The notes beneath the pieces were generated by a model. The model searched no databases. It saw only the letters and a program-made list of their open reading frames with translations, and was not told the origin of the DNA. The translations under genes were made by a program, and so were the position numbers. From Strigops habroptila (lineage: Eukaryota; Chordata; Aves; Psittaciformes; Psittacidae), in the NCBI RefSeq assembly GCF_004027225.2, contig NC_046358.1, forward strand, positions 1,048,911-1,112,910: 64,000 bases of DNA, read 5' to 3'. This document shows, one piece after another, positions 19,760 through 62,843 of this stretch; positions within the stretch are counted from its first letter, which is position 1, and each line of letters starts with the position of its first letter.

Positions 19760-20689
19760 CTGTGGGAAGGGAGCCTTCATTCACAGCCCCATCCCGCTCT
19801 CTTTGCTGCTCAGGTAGTTTAAACATAAATAGATTAAGGGTGTTCTGTCCACACAGGGTTTCAGTGCCATTTCATTAATGCACTTCAGGACCTCCTCTGG
19901 CTAATTTGAGTTGATTTCTTGGAGTGAAAGGGCTGTAGTAAAAGCTGCTATACCAGCTCACTGAGTTGAAGGCTGTGACAGCAGCAAATGCCAGCAGTGA
20001 GGTTTTTAGGGACCAGCCACCAGACCTGACAGCTGTGACCAGGTGATAGAAACCACTGAGCACACTCACACTCTCATGACATATGGGTTTAAAAAACACT
20101 GGTGGGGTACTTTTGTCTCCATTTACTGCACTGGATAACACAGATCTTCCTTGTCTGAACTTCCCAGCAGATGAGGACACTGCCAGATGAGCTCTTCCCA
20201 ACCTGATGGATGTGCAGCCGTGATTGTGCCCACCAGAGTCCAGCACAGACTGTTCCCAAAAGAACGCAGAAGCACAGGCAGAGCCTAAGGCACGTGAGTT
20301 CCCACTCCAGTGCTGTTTGGAGAAAGACCTGGTCCCATTCAGAGGAATGGAGAGAAATGTGCTGGTTTTTACCACTCACAGGGCAACTGACCACTGCTTT
20401 GAGGTGGGAAGTGCCAAATATGGAACACCAACCCACTGCTGCTGTACCTGAAGGAGGGTGGCAAATCAAAGAAGAAATCTTAGGTGTGGCAGTGCACAGC
20501 TGTCCTCTTCCTCCTGCTCAAGAGGCAACGTAAAGCCTAATCCCAGGAGAAGGTGGCTCCTCCACTGGAGGAGGTGGCTGAGGTAAATTGGGCAGTGAAG
20601 GGCAAGGCGCTAATCCCCGGCATTCTCTCGGTAAAGCCCGGACTGCCAGCACTCACCTGGGCCACGGGAATAGCTGGACCACAAACGGA

Positions 20690-21830
20690 GATCGGTCCCA
20701 CGACGAGCATCCTCCAAGGGCTAGACGGGCCACCTCCACAACGCGCCTCTCACCTCCGGGCCGGAGCGGGTGGGGGTCCCCCGGGGCTCGGCGGGGGGAG
20801 CGGGACAGGGACCCCGGGAGTCCGTTCCTCCCCCCCCCCCGCCACCCCTTAAGCCGCTTGGTGACCCAGTTGGGAGCGCGGGGGCCGCAGCCGGGTGGGG
20901 CGGGCGGCGGAGGCTCCTCCCCGCTCCGCGGAAAGTTTGGTGCGGGCCGGCGGAGCGCGGCCGCGGGGCTGAGCGCGGCGGGAGGCGGCGGCAGCGGCGG
21001 TGGGGCTGAGCTGGGCGCCCGCGGTCGGGGGCGCTCCCATGCGCCGGGCTGCCGGGGCCGCGCCGGGGCCGCGCCATGGGCAACGGCACCACCGGGGCCG
21101 CGCCCTGCAACGGCACCGCGCTGCCCCCGGCCCCGCCACCGCCGGCCGCCGGGCACAACATCGCCGCCCTGGTGCTGGGCATCGTCCTCATCCTGCTCAT
21201 CGTGGGCGGCAACGGGCTCGTCTGCCTCAGCGTCTGCACGGAGCGGGCGCTGAAGACCACCACCAACTACTTCATCGTCAGCCTCGCCGTCGCCGACCTG
21301 CTGCTCGCCCTGCTCGTCCTGCCCCTCTATGTCTACTCCGAGGTGAGCACCGGGGATGGAGGGGCACTGGCTGGGCGGGGGATCCTGAAAGTTACAGGGC
21401 TGCGGGGCGGGATCGTCAAGAGACCAAGGATCGAGGGTTAAAGCCCTTCTCCGTTTTGCTCCCCACCTCCATCCCTCCGGATCGGGGGTGCCACCGCCAC
21501 TGCTCAGCCCTTCGGGACAGCCCCAGCCCTGCTCCGCTGCAGGGACCCTGGTGGCGCTTTCAAACCGCCGCGGCTTTTACCTCTGAGTCTCTCATGGAAC
21601 CTCGGCTGTCAGCATCGCAAATCCACTGCAGGACAGTGACCGGTGGTGGCGGCAGCCGGCGCCGTGCAAGTTCGGGGGCTCCTCGGTCCTGCCGGGCCAT
21701 TGCCGAGCTGCAAATGCCCCGAGTGGAGATGCCCCGGGGGAGTGTGTCTCCCCGGGCCGGGTCGGCAGCTCTGGGGAGCCTTTGTGTTGCCATCAGCAAA
21801 TGGTTAGGAAGGGAGAGAGCTCCTGTGTGA
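20690..21830 (+). promoter_or_regulatory. DRD4: CpG island promoter and first exon of DRD4
   Basis: The sequence changes abruptly to very high GC and CpG content at about 20,690 and stays so through exon 1 and the start of intron 1. It contains a run of C at about 20,829-20,841 and many GGGCGG-like SP1 boxes. No TATA box is seen. An upstream ATG at 21,039 precedes the DRD4 start at 21,076, in a different frame. Confidence 0.8.
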
Positions 21831-24800
21831 CAGAGCTGTGCTGTCCAGCGTAAGGTGAGCAGGTTTTGGCGGCAATCAGAATAGAATCATGGAATATCAG
21901 GTTGGAACAGAACCTCAAGGGTCATCTGGTCGAACCTTTCATGGCAAAAGCACAGTCTAGACAAGATGGACCATAAGGGACACCTTTAGCCAAGAATCAG
22001 GTTCCCATGTCGAGTTGAGAGGGGAAAGAGGTCTTTTTAGGGAGCTAAGTAGGATCTGTCACTCTACATCAAGGTACCTTTGGCTGGGTTGCTGCAGGGC
22101 TCCTCCTGGCAGGTTCTGTGGTTTGCACAAGCCTGACCCTGCATGTGCTGGTGGTCGTGGAGAGCCACCTTAGGGAGACTTTGGGTCAGGTTTTCTGTTC
22201 ACCTCCAAGACTGTGACAGCTGAGGGAAAGAAAAACAGGAGCTCCGGAGGCTGAGCGGTTTTGGATCTCTCTCTCTGTGTCTCTGTAACAGGGAGACAAA
22301 TGTTTACTGTGAGGGGATTGATAATGCCTTTAAGTGGGGGGCTGTGTTGGATGGGGGTGAGGAGCCCTACTAGAGCCTGACCATTAGCACTAGCTGTCAC
22401 CTCCTTCCCTGCTCCAGTGGATGAAAGCACCACAAGCCAAAATAACAGGTTTTTGTACCCACCCCTGTGGAAGAAAGAGCAGTCCTCTTCTTTCCAGATG
22501 TGGGGAGAGGCAGGACACAACCTTGTGCACAGTGAGCAGCCCCAGCAAGCTGCAGTGTGATGAACCTTGCATTTTCTGATAGACACATGAGTTGCAAGGT
22601 GGTGGCTTAATGCTTCCTTGGGGAGTGAAAGGGGTTGTCCCAAGAGTGAGACCAAATGGTGTTCCTGTCCTTGAAGGCAAACACAAGAGCACACCAGCAG
22701 TGTTCGGGCTGTAGCATCTCCCATTCTCTCCCACAGCAGGGCTGCTGCTCAGCACCTCACAGGCATGGAGCTATACTTAAGCAAGGCAGGCTGAGGATTA
22801 GAGCTTAGGATGCTTTTAGCCTCTCTACCTGGTCCTAGGATTTTGCAGGACACTGTGACCTCTCTGAAGACAGGTATTCTAGAGGGACAGGCTCATCTGG
22901 GGACCATACTGAGAACCAGTGAAGAAGAGGAGCATTAGATTCCCCTTTCCACCACACTGACAAGAACCCCCCATGCTGTTTGGTTGTAGTGGTTTTGCTC
23001 TTCCTTCACAATCTCTCTGGTTTTGGTGGTTGGAAAGTCTCTGTCTTCATTCTTCTTCACAGCTGCTTTTGCTAACTTGGATCTCCTTTTTCTCCTTGCT
23101 CTTTCTGTTGTCTCTCCATGCTTCCAGCTCCTGTTTCTGTGGGCAGCCACACACACCAGTGTGGTTTCCTCTTGCCTGCAGGCTTGAGCTTTGCTGGTAT
23201 CTGTAAAATGCAGGTTAATATACACTGGGATACCTCTGAAAATGCTTCCATTTGGGCATCAGCAGCGTGGGGCTTTCCTTGGGTACCACAGACATCCCAC
23301 AAATTCTGGATGCTTGGACAATGGGTGTTCAGCCCTGCATGAACCTTAGAAATATGCTGAGGGGAAGTTTGAGTAACCATTGAAGCAGTGCCAGGGGATG
23401 GAATTCTTGTAGGTTTTAGTTTTTCTTTTCTTGGAGGCAAAGCAAAACAAGAATCAGACGCTTGACAGGGGCTATAGTGGTTGCTGCTGCTTAAAACCAG
23501 CTTGAATTCAACTTGCATTCTGTACCACTGCATTTACCCACTGACAATGTGGCATGGGCAGTCCTGAATGTTCAGATCAACCTTTGTTCTTGCTGTGGGA
23601 TTTTTCTTTGGTGGTTGTTTTTAACTTGAGTGCAGCTCCTGACAGAGTAAAGGTGACTTTGAGGGCTATTGGAAAACTTGAAAACCAGCTGAGAGGGTGG
23701 GTATTTTTTTGCTTCTTGTTGAACAGGAACAGAACAAGGAACTCTGACCACTTCTTTCATTCAGCAGGAGATGCTTGGTCATCTTGTGCTTTCTTCCTGT
23801 ATGAACTCTTCTTGTGTTTGGTGTTTGGAACCATCCCTCCCAGGCAGGGCTTTAGAAGACAGCTGGAGGGATTTAACATTTGAGGTGAGATCTGACATCC
23901 CCACAACAGATCTCCCACAAGCGTCAGAGGGGATGGGATTCCTTCCTGTGAGATGTGAATTATCCTTTGCTGCTGTTCACAGAAGCTGGAACACAGTGTG
24001 AGAGGCCTTGATCTTGACTGTTATTTCTAGTTGCTAAAAAAGCTGATTGTGATGCTTCAGCTGCAGTTGTTGTCACCTATTCTCCTTCTGTATTTCTGAA
24101 AGAGCCAGCGTAACTTTTTGTCACAAATAAACCCTTAGTCCATGAGGAGGATTCAGAGGTCTTGGCTGTAGGAAGCCAAATTGTGTCAGTTCTCACTGTA
24201 TGTCCCTTGTTTGTGCCTGCAGGGTTGGAGGATTGCTGAAAGCAGGTGCGAGATAAGGGGGAAATTGGTGTGTGTGGTCACAACTGCTTCTTTTCTGTAC
24301 CATTTCACAATCACTGCAGCCTCAACGGGAACCAGAGCTTGGCAGAAGGGCAGGAAATGGGACCATCTAAAGCAAACCTCCCCTAGTCCTGTCCTCTCAG
24401 GTGCAGCTCAGGGGAGAAGCACCACAGTGTGCAGTGGTGCTCTCATGGTGACCAGGAGATGGTGTGTCTTACTCCTGGCCAGTTGTGGGCCCACAACCAA
24501 TATAAAAATGGACAGTCCTTGGCTCAGAGAACTTTCTTTGGAACTAAAATGAATAGCTCCCACTGACCTGGGGCTCTGTGGCTCTCTCCAGGCATGCAGG
24601 AAAGCCTGTGGGCATCTTCTCCCCACTGACCAGCCTCGTCTGTGTGAGATGAACATTTTCTCCTGAATCCTGCCTGTCCTAAAACTCTCTCTAGTGCTCA
24701 CTGTGCATTGGTGGGAGTGCTTCAGAATGTATTTCTTTCCTCATTAATTCGTCCTGTCAAATTTACCTACCTGAGCAGCTCAAGTTAATGCTTGACCTTA

Positions 24801-30800: not shown

Positions 30801-33755
30801 TTATTGTCAGGGGAAAACAAAGGCAGCTTCTCTTGTATTAATGCTGTTAATGGTCTCCTCCTGGTCTGATTAAAATGCTGTTGATGGTCTCCTCCTGGAG
30901 GCAGTTTCCTGGTGTGAGGAAAGGAAGGTGATGTTCAGTGCATCAGCTCTGGATGCAGGAGGGTCTGGACAAGTGTCTGGTTGGTGAACCCTGACTTATT
31001 TTAGTGCTCCTTGAGCTCATCCTTCCATTCCCATTGCCAACAGCTGATTCACAGCACCCTGCTGAGCAAACATTCCAGTTCCATGGGCTGGTATTGATAA
31101 AGCACAAACCCTGGGCCATTTCCTGGTTTTGTTGGGTTTCTTCTGAGAATTATTTAGGACACAGAAGTGTAGATTTTTAACTTAATACCTTTTGCATAGC
31201 AGAGCCAGTGCTTCTGAGTAATACAGACCAATGGCACATGTCTGGCAACTGGAGAGCAGGGGCAAGAGATGGTGTCTGACTGCCTTGAACAGTCCGGCCT
31301 TGGGCTTAGCATGACAGAACCAAACAATTGTGTAGCACCTGGAACTATCACATCAGCTGCAAACAGGGTGTTGGAGCAGTTGGAACATGAAAGAGGAGGT
31401 CTGTGCTCTGTCCCTTATTCAAGAGCCTCTCCCTGCCTCCTCAGTGACCCATGGCTAGTGATGCTGTGTAGGGAATGCTGAGCCCTGCATTACTGGGGGG
31501 ATTGTGGCATGGAGTTTGAGGAGTTTGGATTCCCATTAATGGGCCTCTGCACCCTTTAGTGTGCCCAGCACCCCTTGCTTGGCAATGCTGGTGGGTTGTG
31601 GGCTCAATTCTCCAACCAGGCTGGGACCACAATGTCCCAGGCAAGCTGTGAGCTCTTGTGGGGGGCTATTCCATGTGCTGCTGCTTTCCTGGGCAGAGAG
31701 GATCATGCCTGGAGCAGGAGTGCTCCAGGGCTGGCTGCTCACCTGGAGGGAGACGTGAGTGGTGGAGGTGCCCAGGCACGGAGCTGTTTTGAGGCATTTT
31801 CACACAGTGGGACATGGCACCTGCTGACCTTGGGGATCTTTTCAGTTCCAGGGAGGTGTGTGGTCCCTCAGCATGGTGCTGTGCGATGCTCTGATGACCA
31901 TGGACGTGATGTTGTGCACAGCCTCCATCTTCAATCTCTGTGCTATCAGTGTGGATCGGTAAGTGCCTTCCTCCTCCTCCTCCTCATGCCAGGGGAGGGA
32001 AAGCTGTGTCCTGGCACCAAGCTGCTTCCCTGCAGGCCCCATGCTCTGCCCTTCATTTCCCCCTTCACCAGCTTTGTGTCCATCCATACCCTTGCACAAT
32101 AACATGATAAGGGCAGAGCTGCCCCTTCGGGTGCTCTTCTGAGGGGCTGACTGGTGATAGCCCAGGCCTTGGCTCTGTAAGTGAATTCACCAGGGGGAAG
32201 GGCAGTGGCAAGAGGCTTTAGGACTCACGTTACCAGTGGTACCACCACCATACAGGGACTGACTCACCTGGGGCCTGTGTTGGCAGGTTTATCGCTGTTT
32301 CAATCCCCCTGAACTACAACCGGCGACAGATCGACCTGCGGCAGCTGATCCTCATATCCACCACCTGGATATTCGCCTTTGCCGTCGCATCCCCCGTCAT
32401 ATTTGGCCTCAACAGTGTCCCAAACCGGGACCCCAGCTTGTGTCAGCTGGAGGATGACAACTACATCATATACTCCTCCATCTGCTCCTTCTTCATCCCG
32501 TGCCCCGTCATGCTGGTGCTCTACTGCGCCATGTTCCAAGGACTCAAGCGCTGGGAAGAAGCCCGGAAGGCCAAGCTCAGGGGCGGCATCTACGGGGCCA
32601 ACAGGAAGCTCTATCACCCTGGAACTTTCATTGCGAGCGAGCAGACCAGGCTGGAGCCAGATGAGTGCAACCCCTATGTCCTCTCCAGCCACCCAGGAGA
32701 CTGTGGGATGAGCAATGGGATCCAGACTGTCTCCTACTCCCACCTCAAATACCCACACCCGGGACACAGTCGGAAGCAGGCCAAGATCAATGGCCGGGAG
32801 CGGAAGGCCATGCGGGTGCTGCCTGTCGTTGTTGGTGAGGAGTAGTTGGGGTTGGCTGGGGAAGGGCAGGGGACATGTCGTGCTGGGCTTGGTCCAAGCA
32901 GGACTTGTTTGAACCTGGGGAAGCTAACACACACCTTGGCCTCCCCTACCAGGAGCTGCATGGCCCAGGTGTAGTGCTGAGGACTGGGTTTTGTCCTTGC
33001 TGGAGGGGGTGAGGGTGAGACAAGAGCCACCTCCCTCTTATTCCAGCCCAGGTCCTCCTCCCTCTCCCTCACATACACTCGTTTTAACACCCACCCTCCC
33101 CTTGTCCCTGTGCCTGGTTGTGGCTTAAGATCCGCTGCGCTCATTGCTCATCATCAGGAAATGATTATCTGGGGAAAGTCTCAGTATCCCTTTGAGCAGG
33201 GTAGTGCCACCAGACACCTCCCCTGGGACAGAGCAGGAGCACCTACAGCGTATGTAACCCAACCTCTTACTCAAGGTAAACCTGTGACTCCTCACACCTT
33301 AAATGCAAATCCAAACTGATCCGTAACTCTGACTTTGCACCAGTGTTTAGGATGATAAATACATCCTTGTCTGGGCATGAACCCAGCTCTACACATCAGC
33401 CCATCTGCTGCTTCTGCCTTGGCCCTCTGAGCTCTCTCCCTTCTTGTTTAGCCCAGGCTTTGTGTTAAATTAACCCCTTTTTTTGTTAAATTAACTTATT
33501 AACCTTTTTTTGTTCAATTAACCCCTTTTTAACATTCACTGTCCTTCTGCAGGTGCTTTCCTCTTCTGCTGGACTCCTTTCTTCGTGGTCCACATCACCA
33601 AGGCTCTCTGCAAGTCCTGTGCTGTTCCCACTCAAGTCACCAGCACCGTCACCTGGTTGGGTTATGTCAACAGCGCCGTCAACCCCATCATCTACACCGT
33701 GTTCAACGCCGAGTTCAGGAACTTCTTCCGCAAGGTCTTGCACCTCTTCTGCTGA
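21076..33755 (+). CDS. DRD4: Dopamine receptor D4
   Basis: DRD4 is a Gi-coupled class A receptor of the plasma membrane that binds dopamine. Exons: 21,076-21,342, 31,846-31,958, 32,287-32,834 and 33,553-33,755; GT-AG borders and phases 0, 2 and 1 agree, giving 376 residues. The 113-nt second exon equals the human length as recalled. Landmarks: NGT glycosylation sites at N3 and N12, N46 in TM1, D74 in TM2, amine-binding D109, a DRF motif at 126-128 as in human D4, the C102-C179 disulfide, TM5 serines at 190, 191 and 194, CWTP at 315-318, NPIIY at 353-357, and a terminal cysteine (LFC) as likely palmitoylation site. Intracellular loop 3 (about 214-300) lacks the 16-residue proline-rich repeats of primate D4. 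The start ATG has a good context (G at -3, G at +4). DEAF1 converges from the right. Confidence 0.97.
21882..21985 (-). mobile_element. Older CR1 3'-end fragment
   Basis: On the plus strand it begins ATAGAATCATGGAATATCAG and continues with AAAGCACAGTCTAGACAAGA, which fits another CR1 subfamily read on the minus strand. Confidence 0.65.
27385..27510 (-). mobile_element. CR1 LINE 3'-end fragment
   Basis: The reverse complement of the last 125 or so bases of CR1, from the tail (AATCATAGAATGG on the plus strand) to TGGCCTTGAACA. It lies in DRD4 intron 1. Confidence 0.88.
29635..30345. repeat. AT-rich low-complexity block in DRD4 intron 1
   Basis: Apart from one CR1 piece inside it, the stretch consists almost only of A and T, with many irregular TATA, ATATT and TAATATA runs. 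No regular unit is kept. It is bounded by CR1 pieces in opposite orientations. Confidence 0.85.
29728..29918 (-). mobile_element. CR1 LINE 3' fragment inside the AT-rich block
   Basis: It runs from the tail (CATAGAGTCACAGACTGG on the plus strand) to TGTGCCAGCGCCTCA and then breaks off into AT-rich sequence. Confidence 0.92.
30346..30455 (+). mobile_element. CR1 LINE internal fragment, plus orientation
   Basis: It matches CR1 from GGCCAAGGGGAATGGCTTTA to GGCACAGGGTGCCCA, then ends. It is the part of CR1 just upstream of that in the inverted copy at 29.7-29.9 kb, and it has no tail. Confidence 0.85.
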
Positions 33756-34136: not shown

Positions 34137-34315
34137 ACAACAAACCAGCCTCCATCCCCTGGAGCACAGGGAGTGACAAACCAGCCTCCATCCCCTGGAA
34201 CACAGGGAGTGACAAACCAGCCTCCATCCCCTGGAACACAGGGAGTGACAAACCAGCCTCCATCCCCTGGAACACAGGGAGTGACAAACCAGCCTCTGCC
34301 CCTGGAGCACAGGGA
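34137..34315. repeat. 36-bp minisatellite, five copies
   Basis: The unit begins GTGACAAACCAGCCTCCATC and ends GGAACACAGGGA. Copies start at about 34,137, 34,173, 34,209, 34,245 and 34,281; the middle three are nearly identical, and the last has a one-base loss and substitutions. It lies about 380 bases after the DRD4 stop codon, between the converging 3' ends of DRD4 and DEAF1. It does not belong to any coding exon. Confidence 0.95.
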
Positions 34316-34931
34316 GCACCATGTAATGATACCTCCGAGTGTCACACAGGAAGGAACAGACTCATCAGAAGCCATCAGACTCTGGCATTTTCCATCTCAT
34401 CTTTCTCTGTTATTAACTTTCCTGTAACTCCGGATAGGATTTGTGATGCTGGATTGGATCACTCTGATTCAGGGAGACCCCTCCTGGACTGTGAGCTGAA
34501 CACCATCCTCCTCACCCACCAGTACCAAATGGGAGCAAATAACCAACAGAAGTGACCCCTGAGAGCTGTGAGATGAAACCCACCCCCCCCCTCCTCCCAG
34601 CAGCATGTGGGGCCCCTCAAGCCTGGGCACCATCTTCAGCCACGAGTGACAGCACCTGATTAGCCTGAATTACTAAAGAAACACATTAATAATGAAATTA
34701 TTTTGTTGCAGGTAACAAAGCAAATCACTTCCCAATGCTCACCATGGCTGTGATTAGCCCTGACAGGAGCAGGGCAGGACAACCCTCTGTTAATGCACAG
34801 AGGGTTTGCTCTGATAATGGATGTCCCCACCTGAGCAGAGGACACTCGCCCGTCACCGCTGCTGCCACTCTCTGCCTTCACCTATGGGAACTGACCCAGA
34901 AGCACCAGCCGTGCAGCTGCTTTCACCTCAT

Positions 34932-35455: not shown

Positions 35456-55970
<20,515 letters not shown>

Positions 55971-56206
55971 CCGAGGCGGGCGGGGGGAACCGAGCCCGGC
56001 CGGGCGGGCCCCAGCACCCGCCGCGCCCCCGGGGCGCCGCTGAGGGTCCCGCGGACGGGAGGGGGCCGTGAGGTGCGGGGGGACCGGTCCTCCGAGGTCA
56101 CTCGAGCGCTTTTCGGCGGCGGGCCGAGCGGGGCCGAGCTCGGCCGAGCGCTTCCGAGCGTGTTCCCCGGGCGGAATCGAGCGCTTCCGAACCGCTTCCG
56201 ATGGTG

Positions 56207-56634
56207 CCCGAAGTGTCCCGAGTCTTTCGAGGCCTCGTCCGAGGGCTAGCGATGGTTCCCGACGAGCGGGGCCCGCGTTTCCTGCCGGCTGGCCAATCCC
56301 AAAGCAGGAGGCAGCCGAGCCCGGCCGAGTCCGTAGGCGCGCGGCCCGAAGCGATACCTGACAGATCGGGTGGGGAACCCGAGCGCGCCCGAACAGGGCC
56401 GAGTCCCCGAGCGGTCCGGCCCAGAGGGTCGAAGAATCCCGAGCTCGTTCCGGTCTTTTCCGATCTTGCCCGAAGGCGGGTGAGGCGGACGCGAGGAAAG
56501 CCGAGCTGTGCCGAGTCCTCTCCGATCGCGCCCGAATTCCCCTTCGCCGGCCCGAACGGAGACGCCCGAACGGGCAGTGCCCGAATCCGCCCGAACGCGA
56601 CCGAACCGGGCCGAGCGCTCCGATCGCACCCGAA
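56207..56634 (-). promoter_or_regulatory. Homotypic cluster of TTCGGG (DEAF1 half-site) in the DEAF1/TMEM80 promoter
   Basis: CCCGAA on the plus strand, which is TTCGGG on the DEAF1 strand, occurs ten times at 56,207, 56,345, 56,388, 56,469, 56,531, 56,551, 56,565, 56,580, 56,590 and 56,629. The opposite orientation (TTCGGG on the plus strand) is not seen here. CCGAG and CCGAT variants fill much of the rest. DEAF1 is known to bind TTCG-containing sites and to act on its own promoter. Confidence 0.65.
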
Positions 56635-56747
56635 GGCAGGAGGGGCGGGGGTAGGGCAGCCAGCTCCGCCCAAGCGCACAGACGAACGGTCGCGGCGCGG
56701 AGCCTGCCGGGACGCTGGAGGACTGGGAGGGGGGGCGGCGCGCCAAA

Positions 56748-62843
<6,096 letters not shown>

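Follow-up and report, generated by a model that had tools for sequence, protein, structure and literature searches.

A one-directional TCGG array with a 10-base step between DEAF1 and TMEM80: a candidate array of DEAF1 half-sites

Results

Genes and promoter setting

We analysed a window of 64,000 nucleotides, by which we mean the whole stretch of DNA under study. An earlier note on this DNA had placed the feature of interest between DEAF1 and TMEM80, and our analysis confirms both neighbours: DEAF1 lies on the minus strand, with SAND and MYND exons; TMEM80 lies on the plus strand, with Transmemb_17 matches; and the array described below is located between their start codons. The exons and open reading frames (ORFs) that identify the two genes are as follows:

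36219..36485, minus strand: ORF with a DEAF1 MYND exon (MYND E = 2.8e-6)
51832..52038, minus strand: ORF with a DEAF1 SAND exon (Pfam SAND E = 7.2e-19; KDWK at 51907-51918)
55697..55970, minus strand: first coding exon of DEAF1 (start codon 55968-55970, ATG; donor GT at 55695-55696 by eye; end placed from the sequence)
56748..56766, plus strand: probable TMEM80 first coding exon, by eye, followed by GTGAGC
62580..62840, plus strand: ORF with a TMEM80 Transmemb_17 exon (Pfam Transmemb_17)

The DEAF1 start peptide is encoded at 55935-55970. A second SAND piece at 52780-53007 scored 21.3 bits, just below the Pfam cut-off of 22, and the sixth ORF that we examined, 43845-44264, matched no Pfam family. 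Transmemb_17 is matched by two exons of the plus-strand gene, one with E = 8.9e-15 and the other with E = 2.1e-7; TMEM80 has this domain, hence the name of the gene, and the peptide encoded at 56748-56766 resembles the N-terminus of human TMEM80. The gene to the left of DEAF1 is presumably DRD4, a name that we base on its protein text. A separate tandem array of a 36-base unit (34140-34316; 4.9 copies, 96% matches), the length of which may vary between individuals, lies between the MYND exon of DEAF1 and the last exon of this DRD4-like gene (about 33522-33752, by eye).

The region between the two start codons belongs to a CpG island, with a CpG observed/expected ratio of 0.98 over 55351-57100, which suggests low germline methylation of the island. 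Just within DEAF1 intron 1 (by eye), at 55670-55679, is the sole copy in the window of the palindrome GCGCATGCGC, which we take to be an NRF1-type site. Two oppositely directed fragments (57024-57170 and 57973-58114), both beyond the island toward TMEM80, appear by eye to derive from one element, presumably a CR1 element. CR1-like repeats, together with the gene content, point to a bird genome.

A one-directional array of TCGG cores

The starting observation was a set of ten CCCGAA words (TTCGGG in the DEAF1 sense) in one orientation, and we reproduced their places and spacings (138, 43, 81, 62, 20, 14, 15, 10 and 39 bases) exactly: all ten are on the plus strand, at 56207, 56345, 56388, 56469, 56531, 56551, 56565, 56580, 56590 and 56629. 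Di-, tri- and tetranucleotide-preserving shuffles of 56207-56634 (k = 2, 3 and 4) contained on average 0.90, 2.08 and 4.57 copies; ten was reached by 0 of 1000 in each case, and the excess thus stands up to the dinucleotide check and to both stricter ones. The chance expectation of 0.1-0.2 proposed earlier was a single-base estimate, about 5-9 times lower than the dinucleotide expectation, although the excess that it was meant to underline holds. Over the wider interval 55980-56740, one of 1000 tetranucleotide shuffles reaches the CCCGAA count, and over both strands of the whole 64-kb window the word occurs 20 times against a shuffle mean of 10.2 (0 of 100 reach 20).

TTCGGG itself does not prove to be the organising unit: the enriched word is the wider CCGA on the plus strand, with 33 copies in 56085-56650 against three on the opposite strand. 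The extent first given, 56207-56634, also starts too late, since the first CCGA is at 56092 and the cores are dense from 56124. We therefore describe the array as follows:

56092..56634, minus strand: TCGG core array (CCGA on the plus strand), mostly YTCGG in the DEAF1 sense; in 15 of the 32 successive steps the distance is exactly 10 bases
56124..56262, minus strand: DEAF1-proximal block; CTCGG in 6 of 10 cores; holds the sole three-copy 10-base call of Tandem Repeats Finder
56264..56314, no strand: the array's longest gap; CGA is missing between 56263 and 56316, 53 bases from CGA to CGA
56315..56530, minus strand: middle block; CTCGG, TTCGG and ATCGG mixed
56531..56634, minus strand: TMEM80-proximal block; carries 6 of the 10 CCCGAA words

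The base that follows CCGA on the plus strand is G in 16 cases, A in 12, T in four and C in one; read in the DEAF1 sense, CTCGG (16) is commoner than TTCGG (12), and ten of the cores read TTCGGG. Among the 40 TCG in 56119-56636, the preceding base is C in 19, T in 13, A in six and G in two; relative to local composition, G is depleted (p = 9e-6) and T enriched (p = 0.01), and C does not differ significantly (p = 0.14). TTCGG cores lie toward the TMEM80 side and CTCGG cores toward the DEAF1 side (Mann-Whitney p = 0.017). Runs of like cores were considered and rejected, as 15 neighbours are alike against 11.9 expected (p = 0.15).

A 10-base step between cores

Counted from 56092, 18 of the 32 successive CCGA steps fall at 9-11 bases, most of them at exactly 10, and ten more at 20-21 or 31-33; the remaining four are 8, 14, 15 and 56 bases. 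The ten CCCGAA words alone barely reveal this step; the CCGA and CGA cores do. In 56119-56650 the 40 CGA form 20 pairs exactly 10 bases apart and 24 pairs at 9-11, compared to shuffle means of 2.9, 8.7 and 9.0 (k = 2, 3 and 4; 0 of 1000 reach 24), and CGA-CGA distances peak further at 20-21, 31 and 41 bases. We also ranked the exact-lag pairings of every 4-mer present four or more times, over lags of 5-60, for the array and for windows slid along the sequence. CCGA at lag 10 comes first in the array (15 pairs) and first among the sliding windows across the whole 64 kb; it is outside the six strongest pairings of three control blocks, namely the DRD4 exon-1 island (20501-21900) and the two array flanks, one toward DEAF1 exon 1 and the other toward TMEM80.

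A single helical phase over the whole array has no clear support: power at 10.1-10.55 bases exceeds that of random positions and does not exceed that of shuffled spacings (p = 0.13-0.61, four settings). The block 56085-56265 by itself is strongly periodic (12.3 of 16 at 10.52), a figure that stands without its own null. Two further readings of the array were set aside. As RNA, the array folds no better than shuffles do (z = +1.43 and +0.87 on the two strands, with equal or better folding in 92 and 80 of 100 shuffles), which speaks against RNA structure; and although long open frames run through the array on both strands, the 10-base step shifts the frame at every unit, and such openness fits GC-rich sequence.

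Core pairs at a spacing selected by DEAF1

DEAF1 selects two CpG half-sites like TTCGGG, with a strong preference for TT before CG; among 58 selected sequences the gap between the CpGs was 6 in 23, 8 in 24 and 9 in 11; gaps of 6-11 are bound, gap 7 less well; and methylation of one CpG blocks binding (PMC4274154). A 10-base step corresponds to gap 8. YTCGG cores form 11 pairs at this gap, against shuffle means of 0.07, 0.48 and 1.26 (k = 2, 3 and 4; 0 of 1000 each), and 12 pairs at gaps 6-11, a count reached by 0, 0 and 26 of 1000 shuffles; only one pair has gap 6. The three control blocks lack a YTCGG pair at gap 8 on either strand. Two pairs at gap 9 are present in them, both plus-strand: one belongs to the DRD4 island, the other to the block with DEAF1 exon 1.

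Pairs of strict TTCG half-sites are few: two at gaps 6-11, both with gap 8 and both from the triplet 56581/56591/56601 in the TMEM80-proximal block. Two or more such pairs are reached by 39, 498 and 489 of 1000 shuffles (k = 2, 3 and 4) over gaps 6-11, and by 1, 38 and 29 of 1000 at gap 8 alone.

Cores and spacers compared with models of a worn repeat

An obvious alternative is that the array is a worn 10-base GC-rich tandem repeat, in which a unit like GGGCCGAGCG expanded and then decayed without constraint, its likeness to DEAF1 sites being incidental. The step of exactly 10 bases is what such a history would leave, as are the small pieces, and only small pieces, called by Tandem Repeats Finder: a three-copy 10-base repeat at 56121-56150 and two-copy remnants at 56314-56333 and 56448-56467. 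The clustering of TTCGG on the TMEM80 side agrees with it too, and so, weakly, do the five-base spacers, since neighbouring spacers share an identity of about 0.41 compared to 0.31 for non-neighbours (permutation p = 0.013), a faint trace of tandem duplication.

The likeness, however, is not spread over the whole unit: spacers of non-neighbouring units have an identity of about 0.31, near the background of 0.296 and unlike the core. We simulated uniform decay of 52 copies of one unit (three starting units, 200 runs each per setting) down to about 40 TCG and 32 TCGG, and obtained a mean spacer identity of 0.76-0.78, the lowest of 600 runs being 0.598, against 0.314 observed. In a model with turnover by ongoing duplication and mutation (40 runs per setting), 35 or more TCG survived in 33 of 200 runs, and among these the non-neighbour identity was never below 0.39; for neighbours, the means of the individual settings ranged over 0.68-0.94, against the 0.40 seen. 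Nor do the longer internal repeats help, a 45-base pair 62 bases apart and a 30-base pair 160 bases apart: larger duplications were rejected, as the best match is reached by 23 to 42 of 300 sequences in a core-keeping null. Both simulations are simple, with a fixed unit, no indels, few settings and a core picked after the data had been seen, and their outcome counts against the plain neutral models that we simulated without extending to all neutral histories.

As the spacers are only about 31% alike, where uniform decay predicts 76-78%, the TCGG core looks constrained or separately accumulated; and as neither the decay model nor the turnover model reproduces the spacer identity, a worn repeat with a purely neutral history explains the array poorly. 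These results would agree with an array that began as a repeat and came under constraint in its core afterwards. The earlier note had itself raised a worn repeat with a CCGA bias, pointing to CCGAG and CCGAT, which we count 16 and 4 times; in its purely neutral form this suggestion fits poorly. GC-rich minisatellites and short tandem repeats of promoters share with the array the 10-base step and a faint likeness of neighbours; unlike them, its units share little beyond the core, and non-neighbouring spacers are at background. Taken together, we regard the unconstrained repeat as doubtful, yet as the alternative that survives best.

Discussion

We propose that the cores are DEAF1 half-sites, arranged as a homotypic array within the CpG-island promoter that DEAF1 and TMEM80 share, and that this array mediates autorepression of DEAF1; we put the probability of this reading at roughly one half. 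That DEAF1 binds TTCG half-sites and acts on its own promoter, as the earlier note stated, is published for mammals: its own promoter is repressed by DEAF1, and human disease is linked to changes in the SAND domain that abolish this autorepression (PMC4274154); a DEAF1 promoter plasmid bears multiple TTCG sequences (PMC3307728); and in a reporter assay the DEAF1 promoter was repressed by DEAF1 (PMC5458005). Given these reports, the published spacing and the excess of YTCGG pairs at gap 8, an autorepression array is the simplest functional reading. Two features of a DEAF1 autoregulatory element are present at the locus: TTCGG(G) half-sites stand in the DEAF1 promoter region, and the adjacent DEAF1 gene encodes a SAND domain with KDWK.

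According to the proposed mechanism, each TCGG core, at its best as TTCGG, would serve as a half-site for the SAND domain; adjacent cores of like orientation that are 10 bases apart, with 8 bases between their CpGs, would form overlapping two-half-site targets; DEAF1 molecules, for which DEAF1-DEAF1 contacts are known in the literature, would bind one another and load side by side along the cores; and as DEAF1 accumulates, the promoter would be repressed. The observed parts of this reading are the array with its direction and 10-base step, and the way in which core and spacer differ; beyond these, the DEAF1 of this species would bind the array, repression would result and TMEM80 may be affected. 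The CTCGG and ATCGG cores would be weaker half-sites, and the nearest support for such sites comes from Htr1a: the mouse gene has a single low-affinity CTCGTG site, and in the human site TTCG is paired with an ACCGA half (PMC4274154).

Several results favour the DEAF1 reading: direction and step are far beyond shuffles; gap 8 is one of the two commonest spacings selected by DEAF1 (PMC4274154); and the spacers are at background while the cores persist. Others weigh against it: strict TTCG half-sites form just two pairs over gaps 6-11, not more than in k = 3 and k = 4 shuffles; CTCGG outnumbers TTCGG (16 to 12), though selection favours TT before CG; gap 6 is found once among YTCGG pairs, yet it is nearly as common as gap 8 in selection; neighbouring spacers are somewhat alike; and the phase over the whole array is not stronger than with shuffled spacings. 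The sites do not give the sign of the effect, because DEAF1 activates EIF4G3 (PMC4274154) and also acts as an activator in fly, where three of nine enhancers became less active once their Deaf1 sites were lost (PMC8686523). The earlier proposal that the array lets DEAF1 dose itself and TMEM80 is therefore upheld in part: gene pair, place, step and mammalian autorepression agree with it, and the two strict TTCG pairs and the prevalence of CTCGG do not.

That the commonest core is CTCGG, rather than the TTCGG preferred by DEAF1, would be more readily explained if the array served another reader of unmethylated YTCGG, such as a different SAND protein or some zinc-finger protein, with the adjacency of DEAF1 a coincidence. 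We scored the words of ten factors in 56119-56636: those of GMEB (the only other SAND protein scored), NRF1, E2F, BANP, YY1 and CRE are absent; those of NF-Y, ETS and GRHL occur once each and that of Sp1 twice; and none of the ten forms an array. As DEAF1 in addition acts on its own promoter and the step matches one of its commonest selected spacings (PMC4274154), we consider another reader quite unlikely. A signal of DNA shape without a specific protein site, such as rotational nucleosome positioning, is highly improbable: a 10-base step of T and YT amid a GC-rich background would suit it, but it needs neither the one-strand bias (33 to 3) nor a fixed TCGG word, A/T outside the cores is only weakly raised at lag 10 (0.106 vs. 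0.078) and lower there than at lag 12 (0.119), and coherence does not go beyond that of shuffled spacings.

Read as a DEAF1 array, the locus resembles the mammalian DEAF1 promoter, with N52-69 and other TTCG sites, in its direct TTCG(G) half-sites at DEAF1's own promoter (PMC4274154, PMC3307728, PMC5458005); repression by DEAF1 was seen there in reporters. N52-69 is a pair of half-sites with 11 bases between their CpGs, compared to 33 one-directional cores here, with 15 of 32 steps at 10 (gap 8) and CTCGG as the commonest core. The EIF4G3 element, TTCGK N5 TTCGK, has a CpG gap of 8 and so the same step as the array (PMC4274154), but it is a single element activated by DEAF1, in contrast to a long array at DEAF1 itself with two strict TTCG pairs at gap 8. 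Homotypic clusters of transcription factor sites, e.g. those of TTF-I at rDNA (PMC3772059), likewise hold many copies of a site near one gene; unlike such clusters in general, leaving the TTF-I spacings aside, the array is often regular in spacing and nearly fixed in direction. Among the literature matches listed, no title or start of an abstract concerned the DEAF1 promoter of a bird or an array of this kind. A second SAND array that is long, regular in spacing and one-directional is not known to us.

As a natural series of many putative half-sites, set at a gap that DEAF1 favours in selection, the array would offer a ready substrate for testing cooperative binding of DEAF1 along DNA and for questions on how a factor measures its own dose. 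A bolder idea, which we think rather unlikely, is that it constitutes a built-in dose meter: half-sites graded from CTCGG toward DEAF1 to TTCGG toward TMEM80, set at helix-like steps, would let DEAF1 oligomerise stepwise over about 500 bases and read its own level in a smooth or switch-like manner, with the spacing under selection and the spacers free to drift. Kept cores beside drifting spacers make a clear prediction for an alignment of bird genomes.

Other reports touch the locus more remotely. DEAF1 lowers expression of PI3KC3 and ATG16L1, and FOXO factors control Deaf1, which represents another route of control (PMC11849978); a mosquito study concerns similarity of a motif to that of DEAF1 only (PMC5640250). 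The single long gap of the array contains a CCAAT box at 56293-56297, on which the finding of DEAF1 as a newly seen NF-Y partner in K562 ChIP-seq bears loosely (PMC7793273).
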